From NCBI GenBank assembly GCA_018241745.1, contig JAFEDG010000141.1, positions 1 through 64,000 of the forward strand: 64,000 bases of DNA, in the 5' to 3' direction. Position 1 is the stretch's first letter. Every line of letters starts with the position of its first letter. Shown in pieces: positions 52,824 through 60,414 of the stretch. The notes beneath the pieces were generated by a model. That model was given only the letters and a program-made list of their open reading frames with translations. It was not told where the DNA came from and searched no databases. This stretch comes from Pseudomonadota bacterium (GTDB lineage: Bacteria; Pseudomonadota; Gammaproteobacteria; Burkholderiales; Casimicrobiaceae). The position numbers were made by a program, and so were the translations under genes.

Positions 52824-53405
52824 ATGATCCACGCCATCAGCCGCTACCCGGTCCCGACGCTCGACGCGTTGCCGGAGGACATCCGTGCCCGCATCCTGGC
52901 CGTCCAGGAAAAGGCCGGCTTCATTCCGAACGTGTTCGTGACGCTCGCGCACCGGCCCGACGAGTTCCGCGCGTTCTTCGCGTACCACGACGCCCTGATG
53001 GAGAAGGACGGCGGCCTCACGAAGGCGGAGCGCGAGATGATCGTCGTCGCGACGTCGGGCGCCAACGACTGCCTGTACTGCATCGTCGCGCACGGCGCCA
53101 TCCTGCGTATCTACGCGAAGAACCCGTTCGTCGCGGATCAGCTCGCGGTGAATCATCGCAAAGCCGACATCACGGAACGGCAGAAGACGATGCTCGACTT
53201 CGCGCTGAAGGTGGCGCTGCGCTCCAGCGAGCTCGTCGACGCCGATTACGCGGCCGTGCGGGCGGCGGGCTTCAGCGACGAGGACATCTGGGACATCGGT
53301 GCCATCGCCGCGTTCTTCGCGCTGTCCAACCGGATGGCCAACCTGATCGCGATGCGGCCCAACGACGAGTTCTTCGTCATGGGCCGCGTGCCACGGCAGA
53401 AGTAG
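52824..53405 (+). CDS. AhpD-like peroxidase-related protein (carboxymuconolactone decarboxylase fold)
   Basis: A 193-residue AhpD/CMD-fold protein. The redox motif is NDCLYCIVAHGAILR (CxxC with the following His, about residues 86-93), as in AhpD. KAEREMIVVATSGAN is the family lead-in. It may reduce peroxides through a thioredoxin-type partner. Although related in fold to PcaC, the CxxC marks it as the peroxidase-related branch, so it does not supply the missing pcaC. Convergent with the cysNC-like gene with a 30-base gap. Confidence 0.87.
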   Translation: MIHAISRYPVPTLDALPEDIRARILAVQEKAGFIPNVFVTLAHRPDEFRAFFAYHDALMEKDGGLTKAEREMIVVATSGANDCLYCIVAHGAILRIYAKNPFVADQLAVNHRKADITERQKTMLDFALKVALRSSELVDADYAAVRAAGFSDEDIWDIGAIAAFFALSNRMANLIAMRPNDEFFVMGRVPRQK

Positions 53406-53435: not shown

Positions 53436-55289
53436 TCAGGTGGCGCTGCAGCGGCCAACGACGAACGCCGTCAGCTCGTCGACGCATTCGTCGATTGCGC
53501 GGCCCGCTGTCTTCAGGACCAGGTCGGCCGCGTCGGGCGCCTCGTACGGGCTGTCGACGCCGGTGAAATCCTTCATTTCACCGGCGCGTGCACGCCGGTA
53601 GAAGCCCTTGGGATCGCGCGCCTCGCAGGTGGCGAGGTCCGTGTCGACGTGGATCTCGAGGAACAACCGCTTGCCGGCCGACGCCCGCGCACGCGAACGG
53701 TCGTCGCGGTACGGCGAGATGAACGCAGTGATGCAGACCGCACCGGCGTCGGCGAACAGCGCCGCCACCTCGCCCACGCGCCGGATGTTCTCCTGGCGGT
53801 CGTCCGGCGAAAAGCCCAGGTCCCCGTTCAGGCCGCTGCGCACGTTGTCGCCGTCGAGCGTGTAGACGAACCAGCCGAGGTCGAACAGGCGTCGCTCGAG
53901 CGCGATGCCCAGCGTCGACTTGCCGGCACCCGACAGCCCGGTGAGCCACACGACGGCGCCCTGGTGGCCTGCGCGCCGCGCACGTTCGGCGGCGCGCACG
54001 TCGTGGTCGACGGCGACGAGATTCGACGCCGCCGGCGCACGCCGCGCGCGCTGATCCGGGTATTGCGTGGCGTCGGCGACGCCACCGCCGACGATGAGCC
54101 CACCGTCGACGAGCACGAAGCGCGCAGCCGGGGCCGCGGTCTCGGCGCTGTCCACCGGGACCGGCACGTCGGCGCGCAGCGTCACCCGCGCGACGCCGCT
54201 TTCGGGCACGGCGTCGCGGCCGACGGCCGCGAGCGTCGTGTCGTCCAGCACGTGATGGATCGCCGCGACGCGCACCATCGTCTCGCGTGGCCCGAAGCGC
54301 AGCACCAGGCGGCGGCCGATGTCGAGCTCACCGCGACCGAGCCAGAACAGGTCGGCGTCGAAGACCGTCGTCATCTTGGGCGGCGACGCGGGATCGCACA
54401 GCAGGTCGCCGCGCCGGATGACGAACGGATCGGCGATCGTCACCGCGGCGTTGTCACCCGCGGCGAGCGCCGACGGCGCGTCGGGCCAACCTTCCAGCGA
54501 CGTCACGCGGGTGAGCCGGTTGGCTGGCAGCAGCAGGACCTCGTCGTGCGCGCGGATGCGGCCCGCCGTCAGTTGCCCTGCGACCAGCCGCTGCGTGCCC
54601 TGCCGGTAGACGTTCTGCACGGGCAGGCGCAGCGGACCGCGCGCGGCGGCCTCGAGTGCGTCGTCCTCCGCGAGCGCGTCGATCGCGTCGACGATCGTGC
54701 CGCCCCGCCACCACGGGGCATCCGGCCACGGCTGCACGAGGTTGGCGCCGTCGCGCGCGGCCACCGGCACGATCGCGGTCGCTTTGAGGCCCAGCGCGTG
54801 CATCGCGGCGCGCAGCTCGTCGCGCACCGCGTCGAACCGCGCCTCGCTCCAGCCGACGAGGTCCATCTTGTTGACGGCGACGATCACCTCGGGGATGCCC
54901 AGCACGCGCAGCAACGCGAGGTGGCCGCGCGTCTGCATCTCCACCCCTGCCTGCGCATCGACGACCAGCAGCACGGCGGAAGCCTCGGCCGCGCCGGTCA
55001 CCAGGTTGCGCATCAGGTCGCGATGGCCCGGGGCGTCGACGATCGCGAACTCGCGCTTCTGCGAGCGCACGCGCACGTGCGTGATGTCGAGCGTGATCGC
55101 CTGGTCGCGCTCGACCTGGAACGCGTCGAGCACGAACGACCATTCGAGCGGCACGCCGCGCGCCGCGCTCGCCGCCTCCAGCGACGCCACCTTGCCGTCG
55201 GGCAGCAGGTCGAGGTCGTTGAGGAGCCGTCCCAGCAGCGTCGACTTGCCGTGGTCGACGTGGCCCGCCATGCACAGCGTCAGCGCCAT
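53436..55289 (-). CDS. cysNC: bifunctional sulfate adenylyltransferase large subunit / APS kinase (CysN-CysC fusion, NodQ type)
   Basis: A 617-residue fusion. Residues 1-410 are the EF-Tu-like CysN GTPase: LCMAGHVDHGKSTLLGRLL (G1), IVDAPGHRDLMRN (G3) and VNKMDLVGW (G4). Residues about 440-617 are APS kinase: VVWLTGLSGAGKSTLGIALERRL (Walker A), DGDNVRSGLNGDLGFSPDDRQENIRRVGEV (DGDN) and FISPYRDDRSRARA. With CysD it makes APS from sulfate and ATP and phosphorylates it to PAPS. The ATG shares one base with the cysD stop (TAATG). The divergent sulfotransferase gene suggests PAPS is used for sulfation. No cysH, cysI or cysG gene is near. Confidence 0.92.
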   Translation of the reverse strand: MALTLCMAGHVDHGKSTLLGRLLNDLDLLPDGKVASLEAASAARGVPLEWSFVLDAFQVERDQAITLDITHVRVRSQKREFAIVDAPGHRDLMRNLVTGAAEASAVLLVVDAQAGVEMQTRGHLALLRVLGIPEVIVAVNKMDLVGWSEARFDAVRDELRAAMHALGLKATAIVPVAARDGANLVQPWPDAPWWRGGTIVDAIDALAEDDALEAAARGPLRLPVQNVYRQGTQRLVAGQLTAGRIRAHDEVLLLPANRLTRVTSLEGWPDAPSALAAGDNAAVTIADPFVIRRGDLLCDPASPPKMTTVFDADLFWLGRGELDIGRRLVLRFGPRETMVRVAAIHHVLDDTTLAAVGRDAVPESGVARVTLRADVPVPVDSAETAAPAARFVLVDGGLIVGGGVADATQYPDQRARRAPAASNLVAVDHDVRAAERARRAGHQGAVVWLTGLSGAGKSTLGIALERRLFDLGWFVYTLDGDNVRSGLNGDLGFSPDDRQENIRRVGEVAALFADAGAVCITAFISPYRDDRSRARASAGKRLFLEIHVDTDLATCEARDPKGFYRRARAGEMKDFTGVDSPYEAPDAADLVLKTAGRAIDECVDELTAFVVGRCSAT

Positions 55290-56089
55290 TACATGTACCC
55301 CGTCGCGCGCAGCCGCTCGAACGCGTCCTCGCGCTCGTGGTCCATCGCGCGGCCCGCGCGCTCGGACTGCCGCGTCGTTGTCAGCTCCGCGATGATCTCG
55401 GCGATGTTCGCCGCGTTCGAGTCCACGGGGAACGTGATGTCCTTCTCGCCCAACGAGCGAAAGCGCTTGCCGTTGCGCGCGAAATACAGCTCGGGCACCG
55501 GGATGTTCTCCGCCTCGACATAGCGCCAGATGTCGAGCTCCGTCCACTTGAGCAGCGGGTGCACGCGCACGTGCCCGCCTTCCGGCGCGATCGCCGAATA
55601 CTGGCCCCACAGTTCCGTGGGCTGCGCATCGAAGTGCCAGCGCCCGTCCGCGTCGCGCGGGCTCATGCCGCGTTCCTTGCCGCGGATCGGCTGCTCGTCG
55701 CGCCGGATGCCGAGCAGGATGCCGGCGAACGGCCGCTCGGCGAGCAGGCGCTTGAGGCCCAGCGTCTTGCGCGCCGCGGCGCGCGCGGCCGGCGGCAGCG
55801 TCGCATCCGTGTCTTCCGCGGGCGGACAGACGGCCGCGATGTGGTCGAGGTTCCACTCGCGGACGTAGCGGTCGCGGAACGCATACACCTCGTCGAATTC
55901 GTTACCCGTGTCCAGCAGGATCAGCGGGAACGGAACGCGGCCGTTGAACGCCTTGCGCGCAAGCCACAGCAGCGTGTTCGAGTCCTTGCCCAGCGACCAC
56001 AGCATCGCCAGCGGGTTGAGCTGGGCGTGCGCTTCGCGGATCAGGTGGATCGATTCCTGCTCGAGGGCGTGGAGGTGGCGGTCTTGCAT
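55289..56089 (-). CDS. cysD: sulfate adenylyltransferase small subunit (CysD/NodP)
   Basis: A 266-residue adenylyltransferase of the PP-loop ATPase family. The P-loop is LWSLGKDSNTLLWLARKAF (SLGKDS, residues 32-37), then PFPLILLDTGNEFDEVYAFRDRY, ILLGIRRDEQPIRGKERGMSPRDADGRWHFDAQPTELWGQYS and the typical HPLLKWTELDIWRYVEAENIPVPELYFAR. The canonical SIGKDSxVMLHL reads SLGKDSNTLLWL here. ATG 56089 has no Shine-Dalgarno; TACAAT ends nine bases upstream. The gene's C-terminus is shorter than E. coli CysD by about 35 residues. Confidence 0.93.
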   Translation of the reverse strand: MQDRHLHALEQESIHLIREAHAQLNPLAMLWSLGKDSNTLLWLARKAFNGRVPFPLILLDTGNEFDEVYAFRDRYVREWNLDHIAAVCPPAEDTDATLPPAARAAARKTLGLKRLLAERPFAGILLGIRRDEQPIRGKERGMSPRDADGRWHFDAQPTELWGQYSAIAPEGGHVRVHPLLKWTELDIWRYVEAENIPVPELYFARNGKRFRSLGEKDITFPVDSNAANIAEIIAELTTTRQSERAGRAMDHEREDAFERLRATGYM

Positions 56090-56098
56090 GGGGGCGCA

Positions 56099-56104
56099 AT
56101 TGTA
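56099..56104 (-). promoter_or_regulatory. -10-like box of cysD close to its start codon
   Basis: TACAAT on the minus strand (56104-56099) is followed by nine bases (TGCGCCCCC) and the cysD ATG. No Shine-Dalgarno is present, again suggesting a leaderless message. On the plus strand, CTAGAAT at 56161-56167 may be the -10 of the hydroxylase-sulfotransferase gene, about 38 bases before its start. Confidence 0.55.
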
Positions 56105-56204
56105 CCAACCGGCCGGGCGCGCCCCGGCGCCAGCGCGCATGGCCCGCTCCGGCCCTCGGGCTAGAATGACACCCTGGTGCAAAGCCCCCGCGCGCCGCCT
56201 CCCG

Positions 56205-58118
56205 ATGCAACTCGCAGAACCCTTCTACAAGCTGCCGCTCACGTTCGACGCGGACCGGCTCGCCGCCGAGGTCAACCAGTTCACCGAAAGCGAGTGGCGC
56301 CCGCATCCGCAGGGACACGCCGGCAACTGGGCGCTGCCGTACGTCGCGCGCGGCGGCAACCCGGACGACGACGGCGTCGCCGGCCCGATGCGCCCGACGC
56401 CGTTCCTCGCGCGTTGCCCCTACGTCGCACAGGTGATGCACGCGCTTGCCTCGCCGATCGGTCGCTCGCGGCTGATGCGCCTCGACGGCCAGGCGGAAGC
56501 GACGCTGCACGTCGACACCAACTATTACTGGCAGCAGCGCGTGCGCGTGCACGTGCCGGTCGTCACGTTCCCTGAGGTCGAGTTCCAGTGTGGCGATGCG
56601 TCCACGCGGATGGCGGCCGGCGAGTGCTGGGTATTCGACACGTGGCGCCTGCACAACGTGCTGAACCGCACGCCCAAGCGGCGGATCCACCTCGTCATCG
56701 ACACGGTGGGCTCGGCCGCATTCTGGGACCACGTGCACGGGCGCGTACCACCGCGGCACGTGGCGTTCGACCCGGCTGCGCGCGTCGACCTGCCACTGGA
56801 ATCGGAAAACGTCCCGCCGGTGATGTCGCCGTGGGAGGTGCGCGACCTGTGGGCGCACTGGGTGGCCGACGCGAAAGGCGCCCCGCACGACAGCGCAGCC
56901 CTCGCGGCGCTGGAAGCGGAATTCGACGCGCTGTGGCTCGACTGGCGCGCGACATGGGCGCGCTTCGGACCGCGCAGCGACGGTCTGCGCGACTACGCCG
57001 CGCTGCGCGAGCGTTTCGGCGCGCTGGGCAAGCGCCACGCGGGCCGCATGACGCTGCCCAACAGCGCGGACCTCGGCACGCTGCTGTACCAGTCGCTGGC
57101 GGCGGCGATGGTCCGCGCCGACGCGGCCGCCGCACTTGCCGCTGCGCCTGGCGGCAGCGTCGCACCGCGGGCCGCCTCGGCGCGCGCCGACGTCCCGGAT
57201 CTCGGCCAGGCGCGCGCCGCGCCACGGGTCGTCACGCGCATCGAGCGGCCGCTGATCATCGTCGGCGCGCCGCGCTCGGGGAGCACGCTGCTGTTCGAGA
57301 CGCTCGCACAGTTTCCCGGGCTTCTTTCCGTCGGCGGCGAAAGCCATCGCCAGTTCGAGTCGATACCCGCGCTGCAGCCGGGGCCGCGCACGCGCGATTC
57401 CAACCGCCTCGACGCCAACGACGCGACGCCCGACGTCGTCCGCGCGCTGGTTGGCAACTTCCTCGCCGAGCTGCGGGACCGTGACGGCCGCCCGCCAGCC
57501 GCCGACAGCGTGCGCCTGCTCGAGAAGACGCCCAAGAATGCGCTGCGCATCCCGTTCCTCGCGAAGGTGTTTCCCGACGCGCAGTTCGTCTACCTGTACC
57601 GGCGCCCGGAGCAGAACGTCAGCAGCATGATCGAGGGCTGGGAGTCGGGCAACTTCGTCATGTACCGGCAGCTCCCCGGCTGGGTGGGCCCGCTGTGGTC
57701 GTTCTTGCTGGTGCCGGGCTGGCGGGACCTCATCGGCAAACCGCTCGCCGAGATCGCGGCGACGCAATGGCAGCGCACGCAGTCGCAGCTTCTCGACGAC
57801 CTGGCGGCGCTGCCTTCCGACCGCGTGCACGCGCTCGACTACGCGAGCTTCGTCGCGGACCCGGCGCGCCACGTCGCCGAGATCGGCGCGTTCGCGGGGC
57901 TTGCGTGGGACCGGCCGCCGCCGTCGACGCTGCCGCTGTCGCGCTACACGATGAGCGCGCCCAATCCGGACAAGTGGCGACGGCACGAAGCCGTGCTTGC
58001 GCCATATCGCGCGGCGATGGACGCGTTGGGCGCGCGGGCGGAGGCGTTCGTCGCGGCGCAGCGCGCGCGCTCGCCGCACGTCAGGCAGTCCGCCAACCCC
58101 GTCACCACGGGCACCTGA
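56205..58118 (+). CDS. aspartyl/asparaginyl beta-hydroxylase - sulfotransferase fusion protein
   Basis: A 637-residue two-domain protein. Residues 1-230: 2-oxoglutarate/Fe(II) dioxygenase of the aspartyl/asparaginyl beta-hydroxylase type, with LHVDTNYYWQQRVRVHVPVV (H102, D104) and GECWVFDTWRLHNVLNRTPKRRIHLVIDT (H150, Arg159/160). A linker (about 230-345) has few conserved features. Residues 346-637: sulfotransferase, with RPLIIVGAPRSGSTLLFETLAQFPG (5'-phosphosulfate loop, PRSGST 356-361) and LLEKTPKNALRIPFLAKVFPDAQFVYLYRRPEQNVSSMIEGW (3'-phosphate loop, RRPEQNVSSM 466-475). It would hydroxylate and sulfate a substrate, perhaps successive steps on one molecule. PAPS would come from the divergent CysD/CysNC. 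No signal peptide is visible. Confidence 0.85.
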   Translation: MQLAEPFYKLPLTFDADRLAAEVNQFTESEWRPHPQGHAGNWALPYVARGGNPDDDGVAGPMRPTPFLARCPYVAQVMHALASPIGRSRLMRLDGQAEATLHVDTNYYWQQRVRVHVPVVTFPEVEFQCGDASTRMAAGECWVFDTWRLHNVLNRTPKRRIHLVIDTVGSAAFWDHVHGRVPPRHVAFDPAARVDLPLESENVPPVMSPWEVRDLWAHWVADAKGAPHDSAALAALEAEFDALWLDWRATWARFGPRSDGLRDYAALRERFGALGKRHAGRMTLPNSADLGTLLYQSLAAAMVRADAAAALAAAPGGSVAPRAASARADVPDLGQARAAPRVVTRIERPLIIVGAPRSGSTLLFETLAQFPGLLSVGGESHRQFESIPALQPGPRTRDSNRLDANDATPDVVRALVGNFLAELRDRDGRPPAADSVRLLEKTPKNALRIPFLAKVFPDAQFVYLYRRPEQNVSSMIEGWESGNFVMYRQLPGWVGPLWSFLLVPGWRDLIGKPLAEIAATQWQRTQSQLLDDLAALPSDRVHALDYASFVADPARHVAEIGAFAGLAWDRPPPSTLPLSRYTMSAPNPDKWRRHEAVLAPYRAAMDALGARAEAFVAAQRARSPHVRQSANPVTTGT

Positions 58119-58145: not shown

Positions 58146-59030
58146 CTACAGTCGCGCCTCGAACCACGCGGTCGTGCGCTTCCACGCGTCCTGCGCTGCC
58201 GCCTTGTCATACGTCGGGCGATAGTCGGCCAGGAAGCCGTGCGGCGCGCCCGGGTAGATCACGTACTCGCTCGCGCTGTTGCCGGACGCCTTCAGCGCGT
58301 CGAAGTAGGCCTTGATTGCCGCGGCCGGAATGCCCGGGTCCGCGCCGCCGTACAGGCCCAGCGTGGGGACGTGGTTGTCCTCGACGAGATCCTGCGGATA
58401 GCGATCGCCGTCGTGGAAGGCCTTCTGCGGAAAGCCGTAGTACGCGACGGCCGCCTTGAGCCGCGGGTTGTGCGATGCATACATGAGCACTTCGCGCCCG
58501 CCCCAGCAGAACCCGATGACGCCCATCCGCGCCGTGTTGCCGCCGTCGCCGGCTGCGAACGCGGCAGTGGCATCGAGATCGGCCATCACCTGCGAATCCG
58601 GTACCTGCGACACGATCTTCGTCACCAGTTCGTCAACGTCCTTGACCTTCATCGGGTCGCCCTGCCGCGCGTACAGCGCGGGAGCGATCGCGTAATACCC
58701 GAGGTGCGCGAGCCGCCGGCAGACGTCCTTGATCCACTCGTGCACACCGAACACTTCCTGGATCACGAGCACGACCGGAAACGGACCGGCACCGGCGGGC
58801 CTGGCGCGATAGGCCGGAACGCTGCCATCGTGGACGGGCACCTTGACTTCCCCGGCGACGAGGCCGCTGGCCGAAGTCGTGATCGTCTGCGCGGATACCG
58901 GCAATACCGCGAGCGCAAAGCCCGCGCCCAGCGAGGACACGACGAACGTCCGGCGGTTGACGTCGCGCTGGCCCATCAGCGTGCGCATGGATACGGGCTC
59001 CATCGTGTGGGGGTCGTCGTGATCCTTCAT
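58146..59030 (-). CDS. dienelactone hydrolase family protein, Tat-exported
   Basis: A 294-residue alpha/beta-hydrolase. A twin-arginine signal, VNRRTFVVSSLGAGFALAVLPVSAQ, follows about 20 charged residues. The dienelactone hydrolase fold has FPVVLVIQEVFGVHEWIKDVCRRLA, the nucleophile elbow GVIGFCWGGREVLMYAS (Cys), GLYGGADPGIP (Asp) and YPGAPHGFLADYRPTYDKAAAQDAW (His). Export to the periplasm is unusual for a catabolic dienelactone hydrolase, so the substrate may be an envelope or extracellular ester. ATG 59030 has GGAG nine bases upstream; ATG 59036 is the alternative. Confidence 0.86.
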   Translation of the reverse strand: MKDHDDPHTMEPVSMRTLMGQRDVNRRTFVVSSLGAGFALAVLPVSAQTITTSASGLVAGEVKVPVHDGSVPAYRARPAGAGPFPVVLVIQEVFGVHEWIKDVCRRLAHLGYYAIAPALYARQGDPMKVKDVDELVTKIVSQVPDSQVMADLDATAAFAAGDGGNTARMGVIGFCWGGREVLMYASHNPRLKAAVAYYGFPQKAFHDGDRYPQDLVEDNHVPTLGLYGGADPGIPAAAIKAYFDALKASGNSASEYVIYPGAPHGFLADYRPTYDKAAAQDAWKRTTAWFEARL

Positions 59031-59139
59031 CTGCATGATCTCCGGTGGGGACGGTGTGTGCGGCGTGACGCGCGTACGGCAGACGCGCGCTCCCGAATCT
59101 AGACTACGGCGCGCCGGGGAAGTTGCGCGAGCGCGCGAA

Positions 59140-60414
59140 TCAGCGGCGGAACACGGCCGTGCCGGCGGCCAGCGTGGCCACGACCCGCCCCGGCAGTTCG
59201 AGCCCCGCGAACGGCGTGCTGTGGCCGCGGCTCGCGAGCGCGTCCGGGTCCACGCGCCACCATGCGGCGCGATCGAACACGCAGAGGTCGGCCGGCGCAC
59301 CGATGGCCAGCGTCGGCGGCGCGACGCCCAGCACGCGCGCCGGTCCGGTGGTGACGGCCGCAAGCGCTGCGGGCAGCGCGATGCGCTCGTCGTCCGCCCA
59401 CTTGAGCGCCAGCGACAGCAGGAGCTCCACGCCGCTGGCACCCGGCGTGGCCTCGGCGAATGGCACCTGCTTCGCATCGGCGCCGACGGGCGTGTGATCC
59501 GAGCAGATCGCGTCCAGCGTGCCGTCGCGGACCGCCGCGCGCAGCGCAGCGCGGTCGCGCGTCGCGCGCAGCGGCGGCGTCACGCGGACGCGCGTGTCGA
59601 ACCAGCCGATGTCGATGTCCGACAGGTGGAGCGCGTGGCTCGCGACGTCGGCCGTCAGCGGCAGGCCCTCCGCCTTCGCGGCACGCACGAGCGCGACGCC
59701 TTCGGCCGACGACAGCCGGCACAGGTGCACGCGGGCGCCGGTGATGCGCATCAGCGCGACGATCGTCGCGACCGCCACCGTCTCCGCGACGACGGGCACG
59801 CCGGCGAGGCCGAGGCGCGTCGCGACTTCGCCGTCGTGCGCGACGCCGCCCTTGCCGAGCCACGGGTCCTGCGGCCGCAGCCACACGGGGAGGTCGAACG
59901 TCGTCGCATATTGCAGCGCGCGCCACAACACCTGCGTGTCGACAAGAGGATGGTCGGCCTGCGAGAACGCGACGCAGCCCGCTTCCGCCAGTTCGCGCAT
60001 CTCGGTCAGGTCCGCGCCGGCGAGGCCGCGCGTCAGCGCGCCCACCGGGTGGACGTGCACGCGACCCTGCAACATCGCGCGCTGGCGGACCATCGCGACG
60101 AGGCCGGGCTCGTCGAGCGGTGGATCGGTATCCGGCGGGCAGGCCACGCGCGTGACGCCGCCCGCGACGCAGGCGTCGACCTCGCGCCCCGGCGTGTCGT
60201 CGAGCGGCGCGCCCGGCTCGTCGAGGCGCACCGCGAGGTCGACGAGCCCCGGCATGACGGTGAGGCCGCTCGCGTCGATCGTCGCGTCCGCGTTCCAGTC
60301 CTTCGGCGCGGTGCCGACGGCGGCGATGCGGCCGTCGGCCACGTACAGGTCGGCGCCGTGCTCCGTGCCCGCGGCCGGATCGACGAGTGTTGCGCCGAGG
60401 ATCGCGGTCTTCAT
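59140..60414 (-). CDS. pyrX: dihydroorotase homologue lacking the HxH metal motif (PyrC' / pyrX type)
   Basis: A 424-residue amidohydrolase-fold protein following pyrB. Active dihydroorotases carry PGLIDxHVHLR; here the segment reads [15 protein letters not shown], with A61 and R63 at the two histidine positions. Other parts look intact ([37 protein letters not shown]). This pattern is known from the pseudo-dihydroorotase subunit that assembles with PyrB in Pseudomonas. So it is probably structural, and the active dihydroorotase should be encoded elsewhere. ATG 60414 overlaps the pyrB stop (ATGA). Confidence 0.88.

Follow-up and report, generated by a model that had tools for sequence, protein, structure and literature searches.

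The pairing of CysD with a CysN-CysC fusion protein is known from NodP/NodQ of rhizobia and from the CysDNC system of Mycobacterium, where it makes 3'-phosphoadenosine-5'-phosphosulfate (PAPS), and in nodulation the PAPS from NodP/NodQ is used for sulfating an exported product. Beyond rhizobia, mycobacteria and Xanthomonas, bacterial sulfation is poorly mapped. In Xanthomonas, according to general accounts and to PMC4216712, RaxST, a bacterial sulfotransferase that resembles protein-tyrosine sulfotransferases (TPST), is fed with RaxP/RaxQ by PAPS synthesis of the CysD/CysNC type. Here we describe a 64,000-nucleotide stretch of DNA (hereafter the window; contig JAFEDG010000141.1 of assembly GCA_018241745.1, Casimicrobiaceae) in which cysD and a cysN-cysC fusion gene (cysNC) stand divergent from a gene that joins a predicted hydroxylase to a predicted sulfotransferase. 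We propose with moderate confidence that cysD-cysNC would supply PAPS to the whole cell, and that the hydroxylase-sulfotransferase fusion would hydroxylate and then O-sulfate one substrate.

The PAPS genes and the adjoining fusion gene

The minus-strand gene cysD (55289-56089; 266 aa) codes for a compact form of the catalytic subunit of ATP sulfurylase. Its product matched PF01507 (8.9e-29) and, by phmmer, 1zun_A (3.8e-55), and has the PP-loop SLGKDS of the ATP site. The stop codon of cysD overlaps the start codon of cysN in the sequence TAATG. On the same strand, cysNC (53436-55289; 617 aa) codes for CysN, the GTPase subunit of ATP sulfurylase (GTP_EFTU, 3.4e-39), fused to CysC, the kinase of adenosine-5'-phosphosulfate (APS; APS_kinase, PF01583, 3.4e-63). 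All of its motifs are intact, namely GHVDHGKS, DAPGH and NKMD at positions G1, G3 and G4 of the GTPase, and GLSGAGKST, DGDNVR and FISPYR in the APS kinase. From the PP-loop, G motifs and APS kinase motifs, which are all present, the pair is predicted to be a CysDN-type ATP sulfurylase with an APS kinase and to form PAPS; both proteins score under several curated NCBIfam cut-offs.

The fusion gene (56205-58118, plus strand; 637 aa; PF05118 and PF13469) lies across a divergent intergenic region of exactly 115 bp (56090-56204), and its start was set at ATG 56205 because relatives begin with the same M(K/Q/R)L. A preliminary description of the locus (53436-58118) had correctly named cysD and the cysN-cysC fusion, divergent at 115 bases from a gene with both PAPS loops. 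It had taken this neighbour for a sulfotransferase, which holds for the C-terminal domain but misses half of the protein, a PF05118 hydroxylase domain of ~200 aa at the N-terminus.

This N-terminal domain (56205-56873, residues ~1-200) matched Asp_Arg_Hydrox (PF05118) with E=1e-13, and its best profile match was 4p7w (E=1e-10). The metal triad H102xD104...H150 and the 2-oxoglutarate-binding arginine R160 are invariant in 17 sequences. When its AlphaFold model (pLDDT 87.8) was compared by Foldseek, the best match was L-proline cis-4-hydroxylase 4p7x (E=4e-9), followed by a nucleoside-antibiotic hydroxylase, proline 3-hydroxylase and AspH. By its triad and arginine the domain is a putative Fe(II)/2-oxoglutarate (2OG) hydroxylase, with a fold nearest to proline cis-4-hydroxylase.

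The sulfotransferase domain (57249-57911, residues ~350-570; Sulfotransfer_3, PF13469, 1.5e-27) has both PAPS loops, GAPRSGSTLLFE and YRRPEQNVSSM, with PRSGSTLLF as the 5'-phosphosulfate-binding element (5'-PSB) and YRRPEQNVSS as the 3'-phosphate-binding element (3'-PB); the two loops are conserved in full-length relatives, and PAPS is the donor that they predict. The domain matched human TPST1 by phmmer (7e-7) and by Foldseek (5wri, E=8e-9), and in the full-length fusion model its nearest folds were human TPST1/2. That model has a pTM of only 0.47, too low for a reading of how its two active sites are placed relative to each other. The catalytic residues of both domains are intact across relatives.

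In the model that we favour, cysD-cysNC would be the only ATP sulfurylase and APS kinase of the cell and would supply PAPS to its sulfotransferases, one user being the bifunctional fusion protein. The Fe(II)/2OG domain of the latter would hydroxylate an amino-acid-type carbon, and the TPST-like domain would then use PAPS to sulfate a hydroxyl on that substrate, most probably the one just made. For the fusion this predicts that one atom receives first oxygen and then sulfate, which can be tested, and the fusion is found in the cultured relatives Pseudoxanthomonas japonensis DSM 17109 and Diaphorobacter HDW4B.

Genome-wide sulfur gene content

The window belongs to a genome of 3.47 Mb in 168 contigs (94.9% complete, 0.4% contamination). 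Its CysD is the sole PF01507 match in the whole genome; this search of a 95%-complete draft revealed neither cysH nor a second cysD, and genome searches for Sat (PF01747) and AprB gave no match either. The only NIR_SIR (PF01077) protein was considered as an assimilatory sulfite reductase but is NirB (TIGR02374, E=2.6e-291). Neither a CysH-type APS/PAPS reductase nor an assimilatory sulfite reductase was thus found in the genome. Nearer to the locus, as described before, there was no cysH, cysI, cysJ or sulfate permease among the neighbouring proteins scanned against Pfam, which represent part of the window open reading frames; the permease was looked for among these neighbours only, and they included no nod genes. 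Across the genus, a PF01507 protein is absent from 19 of 22 genomes; G000 and G015 each encode a single one (in G015, CysD only) and G020 encodes two, a cysH-cysD pair. These counts speak against an assembly gap as the cause of the missing cysH and mark its loss as a trait of the genus.

Once the reductive pathway is absent, sulfation is the sole recognised use of PAPS. With no recognised APS/PAPS reductase or assimilatory sulfite reductase present in the genome, the earlier proposal that PAPS is made for sulfation by sulfotransferases, and not for reduction, is well supported. It had been added that a cysD/cysN pair without a second copy would also serve assimilation where cysH has no other source of APS; the pair is indeed the only one in the genome, but there is no cysH for it to serve. 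PAPS synthesis has apparently been kept without the reductive pathway, so that sulfation itself must be selecting for it.

A strong APS kinase match was obtained only at cysNC, a second candidate at C66 being rejected as marginal. Sulfotransfer_3 domains occur at seven loci of the genome, and cysD-cysNC is therefore the shared PAPS source of the cell and not dedicated to its neighbour. Two of the seven loci code for fusions of SEC-C, a GT2 glycosyltransferase and a sulfotransferase (L122 9327-11498 and L123 2919-6113); G012 also encodes such a fusion (L145 3007-6171), two genes from a decayed CysN-CysC. At C60 (L120 17374-18186), a Sulfotransfer_1/3 gene adjoins an apparent type II secretion gene cluster.

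Linkage and recurrence of the fusion gene

The gene block algH-ruvX-pyrB-pyrC-(DLH)-cysD-cysNC-CMD recurs in the same order in G015 and G045, as it does in G042 up to the contig limit. Its ancestral members in the window include the genes of a dienelactone-hydrolase (DLH) family protein (58146-59477, minus strand; DLH 1.3e-53), found between pyrC and cysD/cysNC in G015, G004 and G019, and of a peroxidase-related CMD protein (52824-53405, plus strand; PF02627), which adjoins cysNC in seven relatives. The fusion gene breaks this order by sitting between DLH and cysD. It is probably a later insertion, because relatives have the same syntenic cysD-cysNC site without it, and its adjacency to cysD is probably not ancestral.

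Several points weigh against the model that we favour. G015, G045 and G042 carry the syntenic cysD-cysNC with no hydroxylase-sulfotransferase gene, and around the fusion genes of relatives from other families (Pseudoxanthomonas, Wenzhouxiangella and two metagenome-assembled genomes, MAGs) cysDNC is absent from the ~6 kb of flanks seen. In G005, G011 and G016 the hydroxylase and sulfotransferase are kept with intact PAPS loops and no APS kinase was found, and the model leaves their PAPS source unexplained; the window genome is, moreover, a 95%-complete draft. The first two points, together with the six other Sulfotransfer_3 loci, would fit a fusion gene inserted by accident beside a resident, cell-wide PAPS locus, with the common PAPS pool as the only tie between them. 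Such an accident is possible but rather doubtful, given the linkage seen elsewhere. Among 149 genomes searched, the full fusion was found in two others of the same family. In G012 a CysN-CysC that belongs to another lineage is encoded 10.5 kb from it, and in G057 the APS-kinase domain encoded by a cysD-cysNC pair of the canonical type lies at 3.8 kb. With the 0.9 kb of the window, the joint chance of these distances under random placement is ~6e-9 (post hoc, from three genomes), and the PAPS genes concerned belong to different lineages. A lone APS kinase is also encoded close to two remote hydroxylase and sulfotransferase pairs, at 0.7 and 5 kb. The notion of a compact, dedicated unit put forward in the preliminary description is not supported in view of the seven sulfotransferase loci and the syntenic sites free of a sulfotransferase; comparison of orthologue neighbourhoods, which it had called for, showed that the sulfotransferase is not kept beside cysD in G015, G045 and G042 but has a looser linkage of 4-10 kb in G012 and G057. 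In G057, a second 2OG oxygenase gene adjoins cysNC.

The two domains recur together well beyond the window. At least six lineages have them fused (G012, G057, Pseudoxanthomonas, Wenzhouxiangella, Diaphorobacter and Asticcacaulis), and they are encoded by separate adjacent genes in G016 (L081 9039-10667), G011 (L082 9497-11125) and G005 (L083 9832-11499), and by remotely homologous adjacent genes in G059, G053 and G144. Weak APS-kinase matches in G005, G011 and G016 were ruled out by sequence as ~920-aa phosphotransferase/AAA-type proteins. Because the pairing recurs, both fused and as neighbours, we infer that the two activities may follow each other on one substrate. It is unlikely that the domains instead act on different substrates or positions, the fusion serving for co-localisation and sulfate going onto a pre-existing hydroxyl such as that of tyrosine: the resemblance of the sulfotransferase domain to protein-tyrosine sulfotransferases and a Lysobacter hydroxylase that persists without a sulfotransferase would agree with this, but a pairing found in several families as fusions and as adjacent genes argues against it.

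As to the substrate, the secreted or surface product suggested earlier is a reasonable guess, with indirect support from gene neighbourhoods, and our best guess for the class is a protein or peptide that is secreted or sits at the cell surface. The window holds no substrate candidate, and the other neighbours of the fusion gene are mostly housekeeping genes. Among relatives, a divergent gene for an IPTL-CTERM surface protein adjoins in Diaphorobacter and Wenzhouxiangella, a TonB receptor is encoded upstream in Lysobacter and Asticcacaulis, and the Asticcacaulis cluster also includes another hydroxylase and two more sulfotransferases. A TIGR03032/DUF4915 domain is fused to the hydroxylase-sulfotransferase in two MAGs (L014 2224-5295 and L017 5977-9108) and is encoded directly after it in Diaphorobacter and G057 (L182 13890-14987 and L079 7493-8326); this protein is likely to be a functional partner. 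A literature search on TIGR03032/DUF4915 and on hydroxylase-sulfotransferase fusions found nothing relevant in the library searched. A doubtful further idea is that the fusion represents a two-step modification not described before and carried out by a single polypeptide: an exported or surface protein would gain a hydroxyl on one of its residues, and this hydroxyl would then be sulfated to give a sulfated hydroxy-amino acid, in bacteria whose PAPS synthesis is retained for sulfation only.

One of the two MAG contigs bears the title Actinomycetota and the other Bifidobacterium breve; their neighbourhoods are near-identical, and the B. breve label is probably wrong. The remote homologues stand in clusters of their own, with a hydroxylase gene followed by a sulfotransferase gene in L085, L087 and L089 (G059, G053 and G144) and a hydroxylase gene in L086 (G039). 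GNAT genes lie alongside, phage-tail-collar (PF07484) proteins adjoin the hydroxylase genes in L085, L086 and L089, L085 and L087 each contain a lone APS kinase, and L086 codes for a collagen-like G-x-T repeat protein. Possibly these are surface-protein modification clusters.

Two further explanations can be largely set aside. That cysD-cysNC serves assimilation, through an unrecognised reductase or through cysH and cysI located in the missing 5% of the genome, is very improbable: the genome is a draft and the compact CysD clade can be assimilatory (see below), but cysH, cysI, Sat and AprB are all missing together, and the loss of cysH extends across the genus. Least probable of all is a role of sulfate as a leaving group, hydroxylation and sulfation priming the substrate for elimination as the sulfotransferase domains of CurM and Ols do at polyketide chain ends, since the CurM and Synechococcus olefin-synthase structures found among the fold matches score under TPST, and no polyketide synthase or thioesterase partner is fused to the protein or adjoins its gene.

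CysD and CysN lineages and comparison with described systems

By alignment and tree, the compact CysD lacks a ~29-aa loop present in canonical CysD. With 98/95 support it clusters with compact-type CysDs from Skermanella, Niveispirillum and Roseomonas plasmids, a group outside which the Ilyobacter CysD falls. The compact form was considered as a marker of sulfation-only units, with apparent support from Skermanella (where it adjoins a sulfotransferase) and Roseomonas (within a non-ribosomal peptide synthetase operon), but was rejected as such because Niveispirillum has the compact type in a cysG-cysI-cysH-cysD-cysNC operon. On the Roseomonas mucosa plasmid (L185 4337-12629) the peptide synthetase operon ends with compact cysD-cysNC, which suggests a sulfated peptide product.

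Most sister species in the genus have no CysD and do have Sat, with sat close to aprB-aprA in G019. Many of these CysD-less species keep a CysN-CysC fusion, which in four species occupies the syntenic site described above. CysN in these fusions has missing or damaged G motifs (for instance GMPGRGRT in G014, and no P-loop in G012, G018 and G010), and the APS-kinase motifs are intact. Such decayed forms were located in G012 (L145), G018 (L146), G010 (L147), G014 (L151), G001 (L152), G004 (L149) and G019 (L150), all of which have Sat and nearly all AprB (no AprB hit in G004). Dividing the sequence difference in CysN by that in CysC gives 1.2-1.7 for pairs with CysD and 1.9-4.1 for pairs without it. 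In the APS-kinase tree, several forks of which have modest support, the decayed forms fall into about three lineages, one being sister to the window and G015 sequences. CysD and Sat never occur together in the 22 genomes (P ~0.013, phylogeny ignored); G003, G008 and G013 have neither, and two of these three have AprB. Our reading is that APS from sulfur-oxidation enzymes may have made CysDN dispensable and left CysN as a passenger domain, and the pattern looks like repeated vestigialisation of the G-protein domain after replacement of CysDN. The genus provides a natural experiment on this G protein: in genomes without CysD, which usually have Sat/AprBA, the GTPase domain of CysN decays and the APS kinase fused to it is conserved.

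Compared with NodP/NodQ and the Mycobacterium CysDNC, the window has the same combination of CysD and a CysN-CysC fusion, here predicted to make PAPS; it differs in its compact CysD and in not being tied to a single sulfotransferase. The RaxST system likewise combines a TPST-like sulfotransferase with CysD/CysNC-type PAPS synthesis, but no raxX, raxA or raxB neighbours were seen at the window, and the sulfotransferase of the window is fused to a hydroxylase. CurM and the olefin synthases also have a sulfotransferase fused to other catalytic domains, although theirs are polyketide-synthase modules acting on beta-hydroxyacyl chains and the fold match is weaker. The hydroxylase domain shares the fold, the HxD...H iron site and the C-terminal arginine with other Asp_Arg_Hydrox enzymes (L-proline cis-4-hydroxylase, the nucleoside-antibiotic beta-hydroxylase 7v4f and AspH), at only ~20% identity and with the difference of its fusion to a sulfotransferase. 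The sulfotransferase domain in turn shares its fold and PAPS loops with TPST1/2, from which it differs in being bacterial, ~20% identical and fused to an oxygenase.

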